From Actinomycetota bacterium (GTDB lineage Bacteria > Actinomycetota > CADDZG01 > JAHWKV01): a stretch of 64,000 nt of DNA. Positions 9,719-48,900 of the stretch are shown here, piece after piece. Under the pieces are notes generated by a model. The model saw only the letters and a list, made by a program, of their open reading frames with translations. It had not been told where the DNA came from and did not search any database. The stretch is from positions 1-64,000 of the forward strand of contig JAUJPC010000002.1 in assembly GCA_030447305.1 (NCBI GenBank). Direction: 5' to 3'. Positions within the stretch are counted from its first letter, which is position 1; each line of letters begins with the position of its first letter. The position numbers and the translations under genes were made by a program.

Positions 9719-10618
9719 CTAGGAGACGTGGCCCACCACCGGCAGCAAAACCGCCGGCTGTTCCGCTGCCGCTGCTGCTGCCCGCTCATCGGCATACGCG
9801 GGGCAGATCGGCTTATGGGGACAGTAGCTGCACATGTGGCTCGTCCTTGGGCGCCAGTCGTCCTTTTGATGGGCTTTTTGGATGGCGTGCGCCAGGGCAT
9901 CCAGTTGCTTCTCGAGGGCACTCAACATCTGGGCTGTAGGTACAAGTGTGATGATCTCCGGCTCCTTCAGGTGCAGGAGCCGGAGCAGCTTCGGCATCTT
10001 GCCGAATGCCCTCCAGCACACCAGCGCGTAGAACTTGAGGCCAAAGAACGAGCCAAGAGCATAGGTTTCCGAGGGAGAGCGGCCGGTCTTGTAATCGCTG
10101 AGGACCCACTCACCGTCCGGCATGATCTCCACCCGGTCGATAATCCCTCTCAACAGGGTTAGCTCGGTCTGGTGCTCAACCCACCACTCCAGCTCGTGCG
10201 GTGAAACCGTGGTGGGATCCTCCACTCTGAAATAGTTGATCAGCAGGGCGTCGGCCTGCTCAAGCCAGGTGCTCTCCACGTCGGGATCCAGCTCCAGCGA
10301 GGAATATTCCGGATCCGCTTTTAGATTCGTCCACACCTCGGCTGTCAGTGCCCGTGCCCGCTCGATGGTGCGGTCCGCCGGGTCCAGCAGATAGAGCTGT
10401 TCGAGGACGGCGTGGATGAGGGTTCCCCGCGTGCTGTAGATATCCGCCGGCTCAGGAAGCCGGTCTACCACCCGGTACTTGAACAGCCGGGGACAGGTCT
10501 TGTAGTCAGAGGCCCTGGACGGGGAGAGCCGGACCAACGATTCGACCAAGCTCAGGGTTCCTGACTCCTTGAGACGGTCGGACTCCCGCAGGGCTGCTGC
10601 GTTGGTTGCACTCATCAC
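9719..10618 (-). CDS. RecB/Cas4-type PD-(D/E)XK nuclease with Fe-S cysteines
   Basis: 299 aa. Motifs in order: LSPSRASDYKTCPRLFKYR, GTLIHAVLEQL, GIIDRVE...WVLSDYKTG (the nuclease D-xKTG core), and a C-terminal CSYCPHKPICPAY. Together with the early Cys this gives the four cysteines of the 4Fe-4S nuclease class (AddB/Cas4-like). No cas genes or helicase are adjacent, so a DNA repair role is the safer inference. The start is GTG 10618 or ATG 10615. TAAGAT lies 5-8 nt before them, so the transcript may be leaderless. Confidence 0.87.
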   Translation of the reverse strand: MMSATNAAALRESDRLKESGTLSLVESLVRLSPSRASDYKTCPRLFKYRVVDRLPEPADIYSTRGTLIHAVLEQLYLLDPADRTIERARALTAEVWTNLKADPEYSSLELDPDVESTWLEQADALLINYFRVEDPTTVSPHELEWWVEHQTELTLLRGIIDRVEIMPDGEWVLSDYKTGRSPSETYALGSFFGLKFYALVCWRAFGKMPKLLRLLHLKEPEIITLVPTAQMLSALEKQLDALAHAIQKAHQKDDWRPRTSHMCSYCPHKPICPAYADERAAAAAAEQPAVLLPVVGHVS

Positions 10619-42051: not shown

Positions 42052-42599
42052 GTGAAGACGGCGTCGCATGGCTGTGCCCATTTTTCTTGTGCTCGTGCTC
42101 GGGCACTTGCACACCGGACGATTCCAATCCCAACGCCACTCCGTCGAGCGAGATCGCGTGAGAGTTCCGGCCAAAGCGTGGGGAAGTACCGGCTCACCCT
42201 GGTCCTGGGCGATAGCTCCGAGATGCGGCTCGGCAGAACGTCGGACGTCGTCGAGGTGGACGTGACGGGCCCGTCGATCGATGCGACCGCCCCCGGGGAC
42301 GCCCCTCTGGCGACCGGCTTCACACTTACGACTGCTGTAACCGTACAGATCGGTTCCGAGGACGAGGCCCGGCGCCGGCGGCAGGCGCTTTCGACCTGAT
42401 CGTCGATCCGACGAGGACCCTGAGCCCAACGGCCGGCCCGATAGCGACCGATGCGTCGCACATCCACACGTTGGGCACGACCCCCGGAGTAACCGGGTTG
42501 CAAGAGGGGCAGCACACCGTTTGGGTGGTGCTGACCGACGGTAATCACGTTCCCGTCAGTCCGCTGGTCGGCGACAAGGTGGTTGTCACCATCCTGTAG
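42052..42599 (+). pseudogene. frameshifted exported beta-rich protein gene
   Basis: A ribosome site CGGAGGTCC precedes a GTG at 42052. The first frame (to 42399) contains VGKYRLTLVLGDSSEMRLGR and TGFTLTTAVTVQI. The second frame, read from about 42390 to the TAG at 42597-42599, gives LIVDPTRTLSP, HTLGTTPGVTGLQEGQHT and VWVVLTDGNHVPVSP. The second part resembles the HTVxVVLADxxHxP segment of DUF4399-like exported domains. A hydrophobic stretch (VPIFLVLVLG) lies in yet another frame near the start. At least one frameshift, either decay or an assembly error. Confidence 0.5.
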
Positions 42600-42674
42600 C
42601 GAGCCAAAGCACCGAATCGGACATTTTGTTTCGCGCTCCGGCTGAATTAACGCCGGCCTGTCATACCCCCTCGC

Positions 42675-42680
42675 TAGCAT
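42675..42680 (+). promoter_or_regulatory. -10 box of the nurA-herA-sbcD-sbcC operon
   Basis: TAGCAT ends 6 nt before the ATG at 42687. GGGG in the spacer is too close to serve well as a ribosome site, so the operon mRNA is probably leaderless. A clear -35 hexamer at 17-18 bp is not seen. Confidence 0.45.
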
Positions 42681-42686
42681 GGGGTC

Positions 42687-43631
42687 ATGACCGTAGATCA
42701 GATGTGGGTCGAGTCCTGGAGCCCCGAGTACGGCTCTTCATCGGAGGTCGATGACGGCCTGGCGCCCTCGGAAGAGGAGGTGGATCTGTACGTGGAGACC
42801 GCCGATTGGCGGGCCCTCTCGCCCGAGCCCTCTTCCTCACCGCTGGTCGCCTTCATCGACGGGGTGGACAGGGTGGATGCCCGGGCCTTCGTCGGTCACA
42901 GCATGAGTACGGCGCCCGGTCTTTTCGGCTCGGTGGCGGCGGGCGCCGTTGTCGTGGACGGCCGGGCGAGGTTCGAGGCCTGTGAGGTCCAGCGTTGGAG
43001 TGTCTTCGGGGACGGAGTCGCTCCCCGGGTCCGGCCGTTCAGTGCGGCCATCACCTATCGCGGCAGGTCCATACCGGGGACCCGGCCGGAGGAGCTCAGG
43101 TACGAGCTGCAGAAGGCCCGTAGCGACCTGGAGGAGGACCTGGCACGCCGGTTGGCACGGGGCGGCATGCTGGTGATCGCCGACGGTCCCTTGCGGGTCC
43201 GGGAGCCGGTCAATCTGGTCGGCTACATAAAGAGCCACCAAAAGACCTACCTGAGTCCCGGCCATGCGCCGGTCGCACTGGGACTGACGCCCGGCGAACG
43301 CACGCCGATTTTCAGCTTCGGCAGGATCCGACCTCGGTACTCGTGGTACACCCGCATCGCGCCTGCCCCGCACCAGCACCCGTGGGCGGCAATCGCCCGT
43401 TGCGAGGTCAGCACCACCGTCGAACTCCGGCGGGCCATCGGTCTGGCGGACGTGGTTACCCATCACCTGCCTCGCTTTGCCTCCAGGGGATTCTGGGATA
43501 CCCGCGCTCCGCAGAACCTGGTCCCCATCGCCTCGCTGGAGCGCAAGCTCTGGAGTCTGCTCGGCAACCGGGAGCTGGTCATGCGGCGAATCCGATCCGG
43601 TGTGATGGCGGGAGGTCGGGCGGATGGCTGA
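42687..43631 (+). CDS. nurA: NurA 5'-3' nuclease
   Basis: 314 aa. NurA is the nuclease partner of the HerA helicase in DNA end resection. The metal-binding motifs of the RNase H-like fold are seen as LVAFIDGVDRVDAR and MLVIADGPLR, with the conserved GYIKS lysine motif, SWYTRI and FASRGFWDTRAPQNL. The gene starts the operon and overlaps herA by 8 nt. NurA is known mostly from archaea and from bacteria such as Thermus and Deinococcus. Confidence 0.88.
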   Translation: MTVDQMWVESWSPEYGSSSEVDDGLAPSEEEVDLYVETADWRALSPEPSSSPLVAFIDGVDRVDARAFVGHSMSTAPGLFGSVAAGAVVVDGRARFEACEVQRWSVFGDGVAPRVRPFSAAITYRGRSIPGTRPEELRYELQKARSDLEEDLARRLARGGMLVIADGPLRVREPVNLVGYIKSHQKTYLSPGHAPVALGLTPGERTPIFSFGRIRPRYSWYTRIAPAPHQHPWAAIARCEVSTTVELRRAIGLADVVTHHLPRFASRGFWDTRAPQNLVPIASLERKLWSLLGNRELVMRRIRSGVMAGGRADG

Positions 43632-45285
43632 GGAGCAGGTCGGTCTGGTGCTGGGAGTAGTGGAGCCGGCCACCTCCACCCAGTTCCGGGTGGTCATCGA
43701 TGAGGACAACTACCTCCAGCTCGACGACCTGGTGGAGGCCCGCACCCAGGTTCCGAAAGTCGGCGAAGTTCATCTTTACGGGCTGGTCACCGAGGTGGCC
43801 GCCCGCTATGAGGGGGCGCGGTTTGAGTCGGACATGTTCCTGATTGCCGAGGAGGGTTCACTGCCCGCCGAGCTGGCGCGGTCTGCGTCGGTCCAGACCA
43901 TCCGAGTGGATCCTGAGATCTGGGTTGCTCCCGACCCGGGTGAGCCGGTCTACCGGGTCCGGGGGCACTCCCGCGACAAGGCTCTCTACGCCGACCAGAT
44001 GGGACGCCGTCTGCCCATCGGATTCGCCCGGGATGGGGATCCCATCTGGGTCGACCTTGACTTCTTCGACGGTCGTAAGGGAGGTCACATCTCGATATCC
44101 GGGGTCTCGGGGGTGGCCACCAAGACGTCCTTCGCCCTCGCCTTTCTGCGCTCACTGACTGCCCACCCCGATGTTCTGGGTCCGGCTGCCTCCAACGTCC
44201 GGGTCCTGGTGTTCAACGTGAAGCAGGAGGACCTGCTGTGGCTCGACAAGCCCAACCGCGGGCTGACCGACGAGGCCCGCCTGCAGTGGACGCGGATGGG
44301 AATCCCCTCGGAGCCGTTTCCCTCGGTTTCCTTCTGGGCGCCGCCGCGCGGGGCGGTCGGCATGGTTCCGGACACCGACTCCAGGACCGAGGGCGTCTCC
44401 CCCTTCTCCTGGACGCCGCGGGAGTTCATCGAGATGGGGCTGCTGCGGTTCCTGTTCACCGAGACCGGGGACTTCCGCCAGCAGCTGACCTTTGTGGAGG
44501 AGCGGGTTCGTTCTCAGCTGGCCCGCCTGGCCCAGCCGGTGGAAGGTCGGGACGGTGTGGTTCGCATAGGGACCCGCCTGGTGGCGTCGCTGGCAGACCT
44601 CGTTGATGTCATCGAGCAACATCTCGATCCCCCGGAAGGTGAGCCGGACCAGTCGTGGACCGGCCGGGTGCAGGGCGGCACCGCGCAGGCGTTCATGCGC
44701 CGGCTGCGGGCGGCGGAGCACCGTATCGGGCGGCTAATCAGAGCGGACGGCAATCGGGTTGACCGCACGGCGGAAGCAGTAACGGTCGTAGACCTTCACA
44801 AGCTGCACGACTTCGCACAGAGGTTTGTCGTCGGAGCGCTGCTCGACGAGGTCTTCGCCGGTAAGGAGAAGACGGGGCAGCGCCTCCCCCTGCAAGTGAT
44901 CCTGCTGGACGAGCTGAACAAGTACGCCCCGCGTGAGGGCCACTCACCCATCAAGGAAACCCTGATCGACATCGCACAGAGGGGCCGATCTCTGGGGATC
45001 ATCCTCATCGGCGCCCAGCAGACGGCATCCCGGGTCGCGCCCGAGGTGGTCGAGAACGCCTCCATCCGGGTCAGCGGCCGGCTTGATGCCGCGGAGGCGG
45101 AGCGGGCGGAGTACGGCTGGATGCTACCCTCCACCCGGATGCGGGCCCGCCTGTTCAAACCGGGCACCATGGTGGTCTTTCAGCCGGGTATCCCGGCGCC
45201 CCTGGTATTCACCTTCCCCTACCCGCCATGGGCCACGCGCCCCGAGGAGGCGGTGGAGGAAGATCCGTTTGAGGGGTTGTCATGA
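43624..45285 (+). CDS. herA: HerA-type DNA translocase ATPase
   Basis: 553 aa. An N-terminal HAS-barrel-like domain (about 1-100, opening VGLVLGVVEPATSTQFRVV) is followed by a RecA/FtsK-like motor. The P-loop reads GVSGVATKTS (160-169), with T rather than G before the lysine. Walker B is VILLDELNKYAP near residue 430, and sensor-like IGAQQTASRVAPEVVENASI follows. The hexamer should translocate DNA for NurA. It overlaps nurA by 8 nt and sbcD by 4 nt. Confidence 0.88.
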   Translation: MAEEQVGLVLGVVEPATSTQFRVVIDEDNYLQLDDLVEARTQVPKVGEVHLYGLVTEVAARYEGARFESDMFLIAEEGSLPAELARSASVQTIRVDPEIWVAPDPGEPVYRVRGHSRDKALYADQMGRRLPIGFARDGDPIWVDLDFFDGRKGGHISISGVSGVATKTSFALAFLRSLTAHPDVLGPAASNVRVLVFNVKQEDLLWLDKPNRGLTDEARLQWTRMGIPSEPFPSVSFWAPPRGAVGMVPDTDSRTEGVSPFSWTPREFIEMGLLRFLFTETGDFRQQLTFVEERVRSQLARLAQPVEGRDGVVRIGTRLVASLADLVDVIEQHLDPPEGEPDQSWTGRVQGGTAQAFMRRLRAAEHRIGRLIRADGNRVDRTAEAVTVVDLHKLHDFAQRFVVGALLDEVFAGKEKTGQRLPLQVILLDELNKYAPREGHSPIKETLIDIAQRGRSLGIILIGAQQTASRVAPEVVENASIRVSGRLDAAEAERAEYGWMLPSTRMRARLFKPGTMVVFQPGIPAPLVFTFPYPPWATRPEEAVEEDPFEGLS

Positions 45286-46475
45286 GATTCCTTCACACCG
45301 CCGACTGGCATGTGGGCCGCAAGCTCGGACGGATCTCCCGCGCCTCGGAATACGAGGCCGTGCTCGACGAGCTGGTTCAGGTGGCGAAGGACGAGAAGGT
45401 GGATGCAGTCCTGGTAGCGGGGGACCTATGGGATAGAGCTCTTCCGCCACTGGACAGCATGCAGCTGGTGGTCGAGACCTTGATACGTTTTGCCGACGCC
45501 GCCGGGCGGGTTGTCGCAATTCCCGGCAACCACGATTCACCGGCTTTGTTCTCCGTGCTCGCCGGTCTGCTGGCGCCGAGGGGGGTGCTGCTGGCGCCGA
45601 AGATTGCTCGGCCGGACGGCGGCGGAGTCCTGAAGATTCCGTCACGGGACGGAACCGAAACCGCCAGCGTCGCAGTGTTTCCGTTTCTCCACGAGGCCAT
45701 CGTGATCAGCGACGTGCTGAAGGACTCCGGGGACTGGTTCGCCAACCTCGATCCGGGGACCGTGATGGGAGCCGACCGCTATGCGGATAGGGTGCGGCGG
45801 CTCAGCACCGCTTTGTGCTCGGGATTCGACGACGGAGGAGTCGGTGTGCTGATGGCCCATTACTTCGTAGACGGTGCCGAGATTGGCGGCGGCGAGCGCA
45901 AGATCCATTTGAGCGAGCAGTACGCGGCCACGGCCCAGTCCATTCCTCCGGGAGCTGGATACGTCGCGCTGGGCCATATTCACCGCCCGCAGGAGGTCGT
46001 AGGAGCCGCGGTCGCCACCCGGTACAGCGGCAGCCCCCTTCAGCTCGATTTCTCCGAGCGAACCCACGAGAAACAGGCGGTCATCGTGGACATCAAGCCT
46101 GGGTTGCCGGCCAGGATCAAGACTATTCCGCTCTCCTCAGGCCGCAGGCTGATCCGGGTGCATGACGAGCTGGAGGCGCTGCAGGGCCGGGTAGCCGAGT
46201 TCGGCGATGCCTATCTGGACGTCCGGGTGAAGACCTCGGGGCCCGTGTTCGGACTGGCCGACCAGGTGCGCAAGTTTCTGCCGAATGCGGTGATGGTCCA
46301 GGCAGTGTACGAACGGCTGGCTGGTTCGGAGGAGGCGAGGGCAAAGCCGATGGACGGCGGGATCACCGAGCTGTATGCCGGTTACCACCTCCACCAGCAC
46401 GGGGTAGAGGCGTCCGTCGAGCTGCTGGACGAGCTTAGAACCTTAGAGGGGGAGGTCCAGCGTGCGGCCTCTTGA
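45282..46475 (+). CDS. sbcD: SbcD/Mre11-type exonuclease
   Basis: 397 aa. Phosphoesterase motifs are LHTADWHVGRKL, VAGDLWDR, AIPGNHDS, LMAHYFVDG and LGHIHRPQ. They bind two Mn ions for 3'-5' exonuclease and hairpin endonuclease activity. The C-terminal capping domain follows. It works with the SbcC/Rad50 ATPase encoded next (14-nt overlap). Fusion of this pair to nurA-herA in one operon copies the archaeal arrangement. Confidence 0.94.
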   Translation: MRFLHTADWHVGRKLGRISRASEYEAVLDELVQVAKDEKVDAVLVAGDLWDRALPPLDSMQLVVETLIRFADAAGRVVAIPGNHDSPALFSVLAGLLAPRGVLLAPKIARPDGGGVLKIPSRDGTETASVAVFPFLHEAIVISDVLKDSGDWFANLDPGTVMGADRYADRVRRLSTALCSGFDDGGVGVLMAHYFVDGAEIGGGERKIHLSEQYAATAQSIPPGAGYVALGHIHRPQEVVGAAVATRYSGSPLQLDFSERTHEKQAVIVDIKPGLPARIKTIPLSSGRRLIRVHDELEALQGRVAEFGDAYLDVRVKTSGPVFGLADQVRKFLPNAVMVQAVYERLAGSEEARAKPMDGGITELYAGYHLHQHGVEASVELLDELRTLEGEVQRAAS

Positions 46476-48900
46476 GCTGACCCTGGAGGGATTTAAGTCC
46501 TACCGGAAAGCCCAGACCTTCAACCTCGAGTCACGCACGCTATTCGGCATCGTCGGACCCACCGGTTCGGGCAAGTCCTCCATCCTGGAGGGCATCATCT
46601 TCGGCCTTTACGGCAAGACGCCGAGCGTGGAGTCGGGCACCAAAAAGCTGATCAACTCCCAGGAGGAGCAGGCCCGGGTCCAGCTTGTCTTCGAAACCGA
46701 CGACGTGGCGTGGCAGGTCATTAGGGTCATCCGCCAGAAAGGCACTTCCCAGACGGTGCTTCGTCGGCTCGATGGGGTCGGAGATGTGGTGACCGGTGAC
46801 CGCAATGTGACCGATCGCATCGAGGAGATCGTCGGGCTGGATTTCGAGTCGTTCCGTTCTTCGGTGGTCCTGCCGCAGGGCGAGTTCGACCGCTTCCTGA
46901 AAGCCACCCCCACCGAACGCTCGAGGATCCTCAAGGGCATCTTCCGCCTGGACAGAGTGGACCTGTTGCGGGAGGGCGCGAAGGCAAAGTGGCAGCTTCT
47001 CGAGGGACAGATCGCCGTCCACCGGACCGTCTTGGAGTCGTTCCCGGACGAGCCCGAGGTGCTGCTGAAGCAGCTCACGGCCGAGGCGGCTGAGGCCCGG
47101 TGCCTCGTGGAGGAGATAAGGGAGGAGCTCCCGAAGGTTCTGCGCGCCGAGCAGGAGGTCCGCCGGTCGTCGGAGGAAATCTCGAGGGTCCGGCAGGAGC
47201 GCTCGCAGACCGAGGCGGCGCTGCTGCGGTTACCCCCCGAGGAGACCCTGCATGATCTGGCGGATCAGCACGACCGGGCGGAGTCTCGCCTTGCGGAAGC
47301 AAAGGATGCGCTGGACTCGGCTGCTGTGCTGTTGGAGAAGGCGGAAGCACACGAGAGCACGGTAACCGTCGAGTGCGGTGGGGACGCGTGGCTGGGGGCA
47401 GTTGAGTCCGGCTTGACCGCCAAGCAGCGTCTCCTGGATGCCCTTGGAACCGCCAGGCGGGAGCGGACGGAGCTTCAGGACGCCTACAGCTCCGCCGCCG
47501 CCCAGCTGCCGCTGCTTAAGGAGACTTTCCAGGCGGCGGAGGCTCTACTTAGCAGAGCCCGCAGTGAGGTGCACGAGCTGCAGCAGCGGCATGCCGCACA
47601 TCTGCTTCGCCTGGATTTGGCCGAGGGGGCTCCCTGTCCAGTATGCGAGCACCCGGTGACCGCCATTCCGCCATCCGCACCCCTTCCGGCGTTGAGCGCC
47701 GCCAAGGAAGCGTTGTTGAAAGCGGAAGACAACCTAAAGTCCTCCGGGGCAGCGTTCCAAGCGGCAGCCACCAGGCACGCCCTGGCGCAGGAGCGCCTGC
47801 GCCTGGCCATCGAAAATTCAGATCGGCTCCAGACCGACCTCGATGAAGTCGACCGGCGGATTTCCGAGCTGGCGCCCGGCATCGACGAGGTGGCCCGCGA
47901 GCTTGGCCGGCGGCGGACGGCGCTACGGGAAGCTCGTGCGGCCGTGGCCGGAGCGCGCACGGTGCGGGACGCCGCGGACCTCCAAGAGCGCAAGACCCGC
48001 CGGGAACTGGACCAGCTGTCCCAGAAATGGCGGGATGTCACTAATCTCCTGAGCCACACCTGCGGATTGCTGGGAATTGGATCGGTCTCTGGCGGGAGCG
48101 AGGGCCTTTGGGACGCCGCCAAACGGGTTCTCGAGGCGGGGGCAGAAAAGGTGGAGGACCTGGCACGCCGGACGGCAGCGTTGGAGTCGGCTGCTTTGGC
48201 CGCGGCCCGAACCGTGAGCAGCTTCCGTACCCGCTTCCGAGCCGGCGCTCAGGATCAGGCATCCGACGTTCTTGCCCGTGCAAAGAGCGAGATGACCAGG
48301 CTTGAGCTGAAGATCGAGGATCTCAAGGCCGGGATGATAAAGCGCCGCGAGGTCGAGGGCCGGCTGGCGACGCTGATGGAGCGCCGCAACCGGTTTGATC
48401 GGCTGACAGCCGACTTTGCCGACTCCAAGTTCACGGCGTATCTTCTCGATGAGCAGCGCCGGCTGCTCTCTCGGATCGGCTCCGAGAAGTTCCACGAGCT
48501 CACCGGCTACTACACATTCGACGATGCCGGGCAGTTTCAGATTGTCGACGAGCGGACCGGGCTCATGCGCAGCCCAGAAACCCTCTCGGGCGGCGAGACC
48601 TTCCTCGCCTCGCTCTCACTTGCCCTGGCGCTTTCGGAGGCGGTAGCTCTGGAGGGCGGCCGGTTGGGGTGCTTCTTCCTGGACGAAGGATTCGGATCCT
48701 TGGATCAGGAGAGTCTGGATCTGGCACTTGAGGGCATCGAGACGCTGGCGGATCCCGGCCGGCTCATCGGACTGATCTCGCACATCGCCGGAGTGCAGGC
48801 GAGGCTGGACGACCTGATCGTTCTGGAGCGACTGGCGGACGGAAGCACCGAGGTGGCGCAGCACGAGGGGCCCATCGGCTACGCCTCTCTGCTGGTCTGA
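46462..48900 (+). CDS. sbcC: SbcC/Rad50-type SMC ATPase
   Basis: 812 aa, short for SbcC (about 1000) and nearer to archaeal Rad50. Walker A is GPTGSGKSS (32-40) and the Q-loop VVLPQGEFDRFL. Two coiled-coil arms meet at a zinc hook CPVC (392-395). The ABC signature LSGGETFLASLSLALALSEA starts near 708, and Walker B is CFFLDEGFGSLDQ. ATP-driven dimerisation of the heads gates the Mre11 nuclease. GTG start at 46462. Confidence 0.95.
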   Translation: MRPLELTLEGFKSYRKAQTFNLESRTLFGIVGPTGSGKSSILEGIIFGLYGKTPSVESGTKKLINSQEEQARVQLVFETDDVAWQVIRVIRQKGTSQTVLRRLDGVGDVVTGDRNVTDRIEEIVGLDFESFRSSVVLPQGEFDRFLKATPTERSRILKGIFRLDRVDLLREGAKAKWQLLEGQIAVHRTVLESFPDEPEVLLKQLTAEAAEARCLVEEIREELPKVLRAEQEVRRSSEEISRVRQERSQTEAALLRLPPEETLHDLADQHDRAESRLAEAKDALDSAAVLLEKAEAHESTVTVECGGDAWLGAVESGLTAKQRLLDALGTARRERTELQDAYSSAAAQLPLLKETFQAAEALLSRARSEVHELQQRHAAHLLRLDLAEGAPCPVCEHPVTAIPPSAPLPALSAAKEALLKAEDNLKSSGAAFQAAATRHALAQERLRLAIENSDRLQTDLDEVDRRISELAPGIDEVARELGRRRTALREARAAVAGARTVRDAADLQERKTRRELDQLSQKWRDVTNLLSHTCGLLGIGSVSGGSEGLWDAAKRVLEAGAEKVEDLARRTAALESAALAAARTVSSFRTRFRAGAQDQASDVLARAKSEMTRLELKIEDLKAGMIKRREVEGRLATLMERRNRFDRLTADFADSKFTAYLLDEQRRLLSRIGSEKFHELTGYYTFDDAGQFQIVDERTGLMRSPETLSGGETFLASLSLALALSEAVALEGGRLGCFFLDEGFGSLDQESLDLALEGIETLADPGRLIGLISHIAGVQARLDDLIVLERLADGSTEVAQHEGPIGYASLLV

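Follow-up and report, generated by a model that had tools for sequence, protein, structure and literature searches.

What do nurA, herA, sbcD and sbcC do when they stand side by side on a bacterial chromosome, and where did the set come from? Work on archaea and Deinococcus has Mre11-Rad50 (SbcCD) opening a DNA end, and HerA-NurA pumping the duplex and degrading its 5' strand. In archaea the genes follow the order herA-mre11-rad50-nurA, that is, herA-sbcD-sbcC-nurA. The window analysed here covers the first 64,000 nucleotides of contig 2 in a genome of 2.88 Mb that is 98% complete, and carries all four with nurA in front. An earlier sequence-only reading took them for an operon in an actinobacterial host that might process double-strand breaks by an archaeal-style route.

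We propose, with a probability of roughly 0.7, that the operon encodes a chromosomal end-resection machine of bacterial ancestry in which SbcCD primes HerA-NurA, and which works beside AdnAB. SbcCD would bind the double-strand break, clear blocked ends and cut near the end. A HerA hexamer and a NurA dimer would then be loaded; the duplex would be pumped into NurA, which would degrade the 5' strand and leave a 3' tail for RecA. The module probably takes ends that AdnAB cannot start on, whether protein-blocked, hairpin or damaged. We infer that a complex forms, that SbcCD hands the end over to HerA-NurA, which strand is degraded and how the work is shared with AdnAB; joint action of the two pairs in bacteria is suggested by the linkage of their genes.

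The four open reading frames lie on one strand, and their lengths and overlaps are exactly those of the sequence-only reading (Table 1). Such overlaps imply coupled translation, and the four-gene module is probably co-translated. Because the same four genes are clustered in dozens of other genomes, the set goes beyond chance. The host assignment also holds: the nearest named relatives are uncultured Actinomycetota (91% identity in HerA), followed by genomes labelled Acidimicrobiia. The contig of the closest relative (L002) has the same 1180 nt between the sbcD and sbcC starts as the window, and its flanks match as well, with phhB upstream and abhydrolase, lysA and argS downstream. These common flanks mark a resident chromosomal locus.

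Table 1. Features of the nurA-herA-sbcD-sbcC locus, in window positions
Feature	Position	Strand	Description
conserved block upstream of nurA	42660..42686	+	from a three-sequence alignment only
nurA	42687..43631	+	bacterial-type NurA nuclease, 314 aa; catalytic D58, K182, R273
nurA/herA overlap	43624..43631	+	8 nt
herA	43624..45285	+	bacterial-type HerA, predicted hexameric DNA translocase, 553 aa
herA/sbcD overlap	45282..45285	+	4 nt
sbcD (mre11)	45282..46475	+	bacterial SbcD nuclease, 397 aa
sbcD/sbcC overlap	46462..46475	+	14 nt
sbcC (rad50)	46462..48900	+	short SbcC ATPase, 812 aa, GTG start

How the operon might be expressed is hinted at by the conserved block. A TAGCAT at 42675-42680, 6 nt before the nurA ATG, is a candidate -10 element of a leaderless promoter; a scan for promoters and terminators gave nothing above chance. 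Nor did we find a convincing SOS box before nurA with the mycobacterial-type consensus, which may not be this lineage's LexA site: sites with one to three mismatches are scattered over the window, and none falls in the conserved block. The lack of such a box counts against the resection reading. Between phhB and nurA lies a DUF4399 lipoprotein-like gene (42052-42599) that is split between reading frames. It is intact in the close relative (L002:6202-6978); the window copy is either a pseudogene or an assembly error.

Are the first two proteins really NurA and HerA? Neither receives a name from Pfam or NCBIfam at E <= 1e-3, so we identified them by comparison with the sequences and folds of PDB entries. 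For NurA, the match to its D. radiodurans counterpart (7f6d_H) has a phmmer E of 1.2e-20, a profile E of 2.4e-49 and a fold E of 1.1e-17. Its predicted model (pLDDT 84) has the RNase H-like NurA fold, with 7f6d_G (1e-17) and 1zup (2e-12) as best matches. D58, K182 and R273 correspond to D53, K201 and R309 of the D. radiodurans protein (drNurA) and are invariant in all 15 aligned sequences. The Pfam NurA model, PF09376, misses bacterial members: the window protein has no match to it at 1e-3, and a cyanobacterial relative scores just under its cut-off. HerA matches D. radiodurans HerA (drHerA) with a phmmer E of 2.5e-117 and, over positions 4-552, a profile E of 9e-193 (645 bits); its predicted fold matches that protein with a Foldseek E of 3e-54 and a TM of 0.85. 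Its K167/T168 (Walker A), D203 (catalytic acid) and D429/E430 (Walker B) correspond to drHerA K175/T176, D220 and D487/E488. K167, D203, D429 and E430 are invariant in one alignment (A1) and T168 in another (A5).

By sequence and fold, then, the window's HerA and NurA are members of the bacterial family that D. radiodurans HerA-NurA represents among solved structures, and do not fall among unrelated DUF87 ATPases or DUF4007-like proteins. The residues compared were proven by mutation or structure in D. radiodurans, where end resection by HerA-NurA has been shown biochemically (PMC9960219). The match at residue level supports a role in resection.

The other two proteins are more readily named. 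SbcD lies above the NCBIfam TIGR00619 cut-off, keeps its phosphoesterase motifs and metal ligands (D8/H10, D48, N83/H84, H193, H232/H234) and is the only SbcD detected in the host genome. SbcC has the Pfam domains SMC_N, AAA_23 and SbcC_Walker_B, together with Walker A and Walker B, a zinc hook (CPVC, residue 392) and the signature LSGGE (residue 708). All catalytic residues tested are thus present in the four proteins, as had been claimed. Against TIGR00618 SbcC reaches an E of 2e-62 but only 211 bits, under the family cut-off of 478. It falls some 200 residues short of the usual length, presumably in the coiled coil. This shortness had been read as closeness to archaeal Rad50, a claim that did not survive. 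Most HerA-linked SbcC proteins have 780-850 residues, against about 930-1050 for most unlinked ones, although divergent and plasmid copies of the linked kind are longer. The best family models are those of bacterial SbcC, with archaeal Rad50 models scoring far lower.

How widespread is the linkage? We surveyed 247 genomes sampled evenly across the Actinomycetota and found bacterial-type HerA in 75 of them, in 55 of 170 genera. A SbcD profile placed sbcD on the same contig as herA in 69 genomes, and in 69/69 it lies downstream on the same strand; the estimated chance expectation for one random SbcD in 3 Mb is that about 0.1% of genomes would have it so placed. The gap is at most 1 kb in 52 of the 69 and at most 6 kb in 67, some gaps being overstated by partial matches to divergent SbcD proteins. 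For the remaining 6 HerA genomes, SbcD is on a different contig or was not found. Order and direction are kept even where other DNA of 4-14 kb separates the two genes (L132, L133 and L134, from G017, G093 and G071), and direction is unbroken by the 10-14 kb that intervene in G093 and G071. Outside the phylum, HerA occurs in 15 of 201 Chloroflexota genomes, and the short stretch examined around each showed all four genes at 9 of the 15 loci. The set is also found on plasmids of Streptomyces, Sphaerospermopsis, Aulosira and Chlorohelix; a Marinitoga phage carries nurA-herA alone.

Distances between the proteins are correlated for every pair of the four (r = 0.91-0.94, with no shuffle as high), as expected of joint inheritance, although shared species history accounts for part of this. 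The constant placement of sbcD, these correlations, the resident locus and the single SbcD detected in the genome all support the resection-module reading. They also qualify the statement that bacteria usually have sbcCD alone: linkage of the four genes is not peculiar to this lineage, and the set had already been published for Oceanithermus profundus (PMC5448004). We considered a fifth component between herA and sbcD and rejected it. The intervening genes differ from genome to genome (a pyridine nucleotide-disulphide oxidoreductase in L058; in L012, read by eye, an MscS-like membrane protein), and we treat them as insertions.

Does the resemblance to archaea reflect a recent import of an archaeal cluster? 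Archaea own the same gene set, and of the two orders we found, nurA-herA-sbcD-sbcC and herA-sbcD-sbcC-nurA, the second is the one known from archaea and is carried by the sister clade of the window's type. That order, however, maps to one clade within the bacterial trees of HerA and of NurA, from which it follows that nurA moved once within bacteria. All four proteins, moreover, are closer to bacterial than to archaeal homologues, descent being judged here from scores and the trees being built from rows without archaeal sequences. The HerA profile meets T. kodakarensis HerA at only 33 bits (E 1.5e-7; 16% identity in the fold alignment), and E. coli SbcCD is the best match of SbcD and SbcC. We therefore consider a recent import very improbable. 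Nothing in these scores points to a recent acquisition from archaea; they place the module's ancestry in bacteria. 'Archaeal-style' holds for the gene set, four genes adjacent on one strand; it fails for descent.

The SbcD tree recovers the same groups as those of HerA and NurA, with most ordinary actinobacterial SbcD proteins and that of E. coli on a separate branch. A further four unlinked SbcD proteins sit next to linked relatives instead, which means that the linkage also arose or disappeared on a few other occasions. D. radiodurans HerA falls among the linked homologues, with an SH-aLRT of 99 for its grouping with the Sphaerospermopsis plasmid copy, although its exact position is not fixed in the bootstrap tree. 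This suggests that Deinococcus lost the linkage to sbcCD.

In the sequence-only reading the module might act in addition to or instead of AddAB, AdnAB or RecBCD. The first half stands and replacement of AdnAB does not: the same genome encodes Ku and, on contig 4, a pair resembling AdnAB, the nuclease usual for break repair in actinobacteria, which rules out a HerA-NurA route in AdnAB's place. This pair, found in a PDDEXK_1 search of the genome, consists of two tandem reading frames of about 1000 residues with UvrD-type helicase and PDDEXK domains, the first of them read in part. PDDEXK_1 proteins occur in all 41 near genomes searched, most of which have reading frames of about 1000 residues. 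The window itself encodes, at 9719-10618 on the minus strand, a small PDDEXK_1 nuclease (RecB-like, 299 aa) that stands alone.

Two other functions deserve weighing against resection. The four proteins might degrade the DNA ends of invading phages or plasmids, much as the HerA-Sir2 and HerA-DUF4297 systems defend their hosts. Known defence systems do use HerA, plasmids carry related modules beside Wadjet-type genes (L065), others (L068, L070, L139) are preceded by an M78 peptidase and a small sigma factor, and according to a study of T. kodakarensis HerA-NurA may act against viruses (PMC12977600). Yet the window copy is chromosomal, amid metabolic and housekeeping genes as in the close relative, with no defence gene in the flanks examined, and it carries the only SbcD detected in the genome. 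PADLOC's HerA models match weakly (best 3e-6); a mad8 model, which SbcC matches too, reaches 2e-11. Solved defence HerA proteins are remote, their folds ranking well below Deinococcus HerA. We regard defence as unlikely.

It is about as doubtful, perhaps marginally more so, that two separate enzyme pairs merely share an operon, SbcCD serving hairpins and blocked ends and HerA-NurA the processing of chromosomes or replication forks. Deinococcus and Thermus do have nurA-herA without sbcCD (PMC5448004), and its loss there is mild. Against this, linkage holds across several phyla and in two gene orders, despite insertions. Joint resection by SbcCD and HerA-NurA remains the reading we prefer.

Some relatives of the operon come in other company. 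The plasmids of Chlorohelix and Aulosira (L068:3802-13116 and L070:2612-11924) and a Chloroflexota genome, G401 (L139:90-8990), carry a divergent HerA clade in a longer cassette: a small sigma-70-like factor, an unknown protein of about 200 aa, an M78 (ImmA/IrrE-type) peptidase and nurA-herA-sbcD-sbcC. The cassette has the look of a mobile module that can be switched, perhaps by stress or invaders; we know of no description of it. Within the window genome's family, G004 has both the window-type operon and a second, divergent nurA-herA-sbcD-sbcC set (L052:2289-10946) preceded by genes for an HTH-M78 protein and a HigB-like toxin. On a plasmid of Streptomyces sp. BB1-1-1 (NZ_CP134205.1; L065), herA-sbcD-sbcC-nurA adjoins an ImmA/IrrE gene and Wadjet-type genes (TIGR02680, TIGR02678, DUF2397).

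Why might this matter? The functional work we found on bacterial HerA-NurA concerns Deinococcus and Thermus, whose genes stand apart from sbcCD and whose knock-outs are mild: deletion of nurA or herA has modest effects or even raises damage resistance (PMC9960219). These phenotypes are the main ground for caution about joint action, a main resection role being not proven there; our literature search found no experiment linking SbcCD to HerA-NurA in any bacterium, although archaeal Mre11 does interact with HerA (PMC2288612). If most bacteria with this HerA keep the linkage to SbcCD, the Deinococcus and Thermus models may be atypical, and actinobacteria with both the operon and AdnAB would be the organisms in which to learn what takes over from Mre11-Rad50 in bacteria. 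Tentatively, the linkage may be ancestral to bacterial-type HerA, making the module a second bacterial route of resection, widespread and operating alongside AdnAB; the Deinococcus/Thermus pair would then be derived, which could explain the weak knock-outs.

How does the locus compare with known systems? D. radiodurans HerA-NurA (PDB 7f6d, 7wrw, 7wrx) shares families and catalytic residues with it and sits inside the tree of linked homologues. Deinococcus, however, has nurA-herA without sbcCD and lacks RecBCD/AddAB (PMC9960219, PMC12977600), whereas the window has sbcD-sbcC in the operon and AdnAB-like genes in its genome. The archaeal clusters of Sulfolobus, Pyrococcus and Thermococcus join the same four functions, but nurA comes last there and first here, and HerA is remote between them. 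The SbcCD operons of E. coli and ordinary actinobacteria have the same families in the same sbcD-sbcC order, without adjacent herA or nurA, with an SbcC of about 930-1050 residues against 812, and with SbcD on a separate branch. The anti-phage complexes HerA-Sir2 (Nezha) and HerA-DUF4297 are analogues in coupling a HerA-type hexamer to an effector enzyme; their partners differ from the window's and their HerA is only remotely alike. We found no paper on the four-gene set in Actinomycetota, although Constantinesco 2004 and Iyer 2004 possibly mention bacterial clusters, and relative to the papers searched the breadth and the apparently ancestral linkage look new. The nearest precedent is nurA-hepA-sbcD-sbcC of Oceanithermus profundus, in which the herA homologue is followed by sbcD and sbcC, an arrangement that Blesa et al. 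2017 (PMC5448004) read as a local recruitment of SbcCD. The four genes are the same; what was reported there, in a different phylum, as a single case appears here as a widespread and apparently old linkage.
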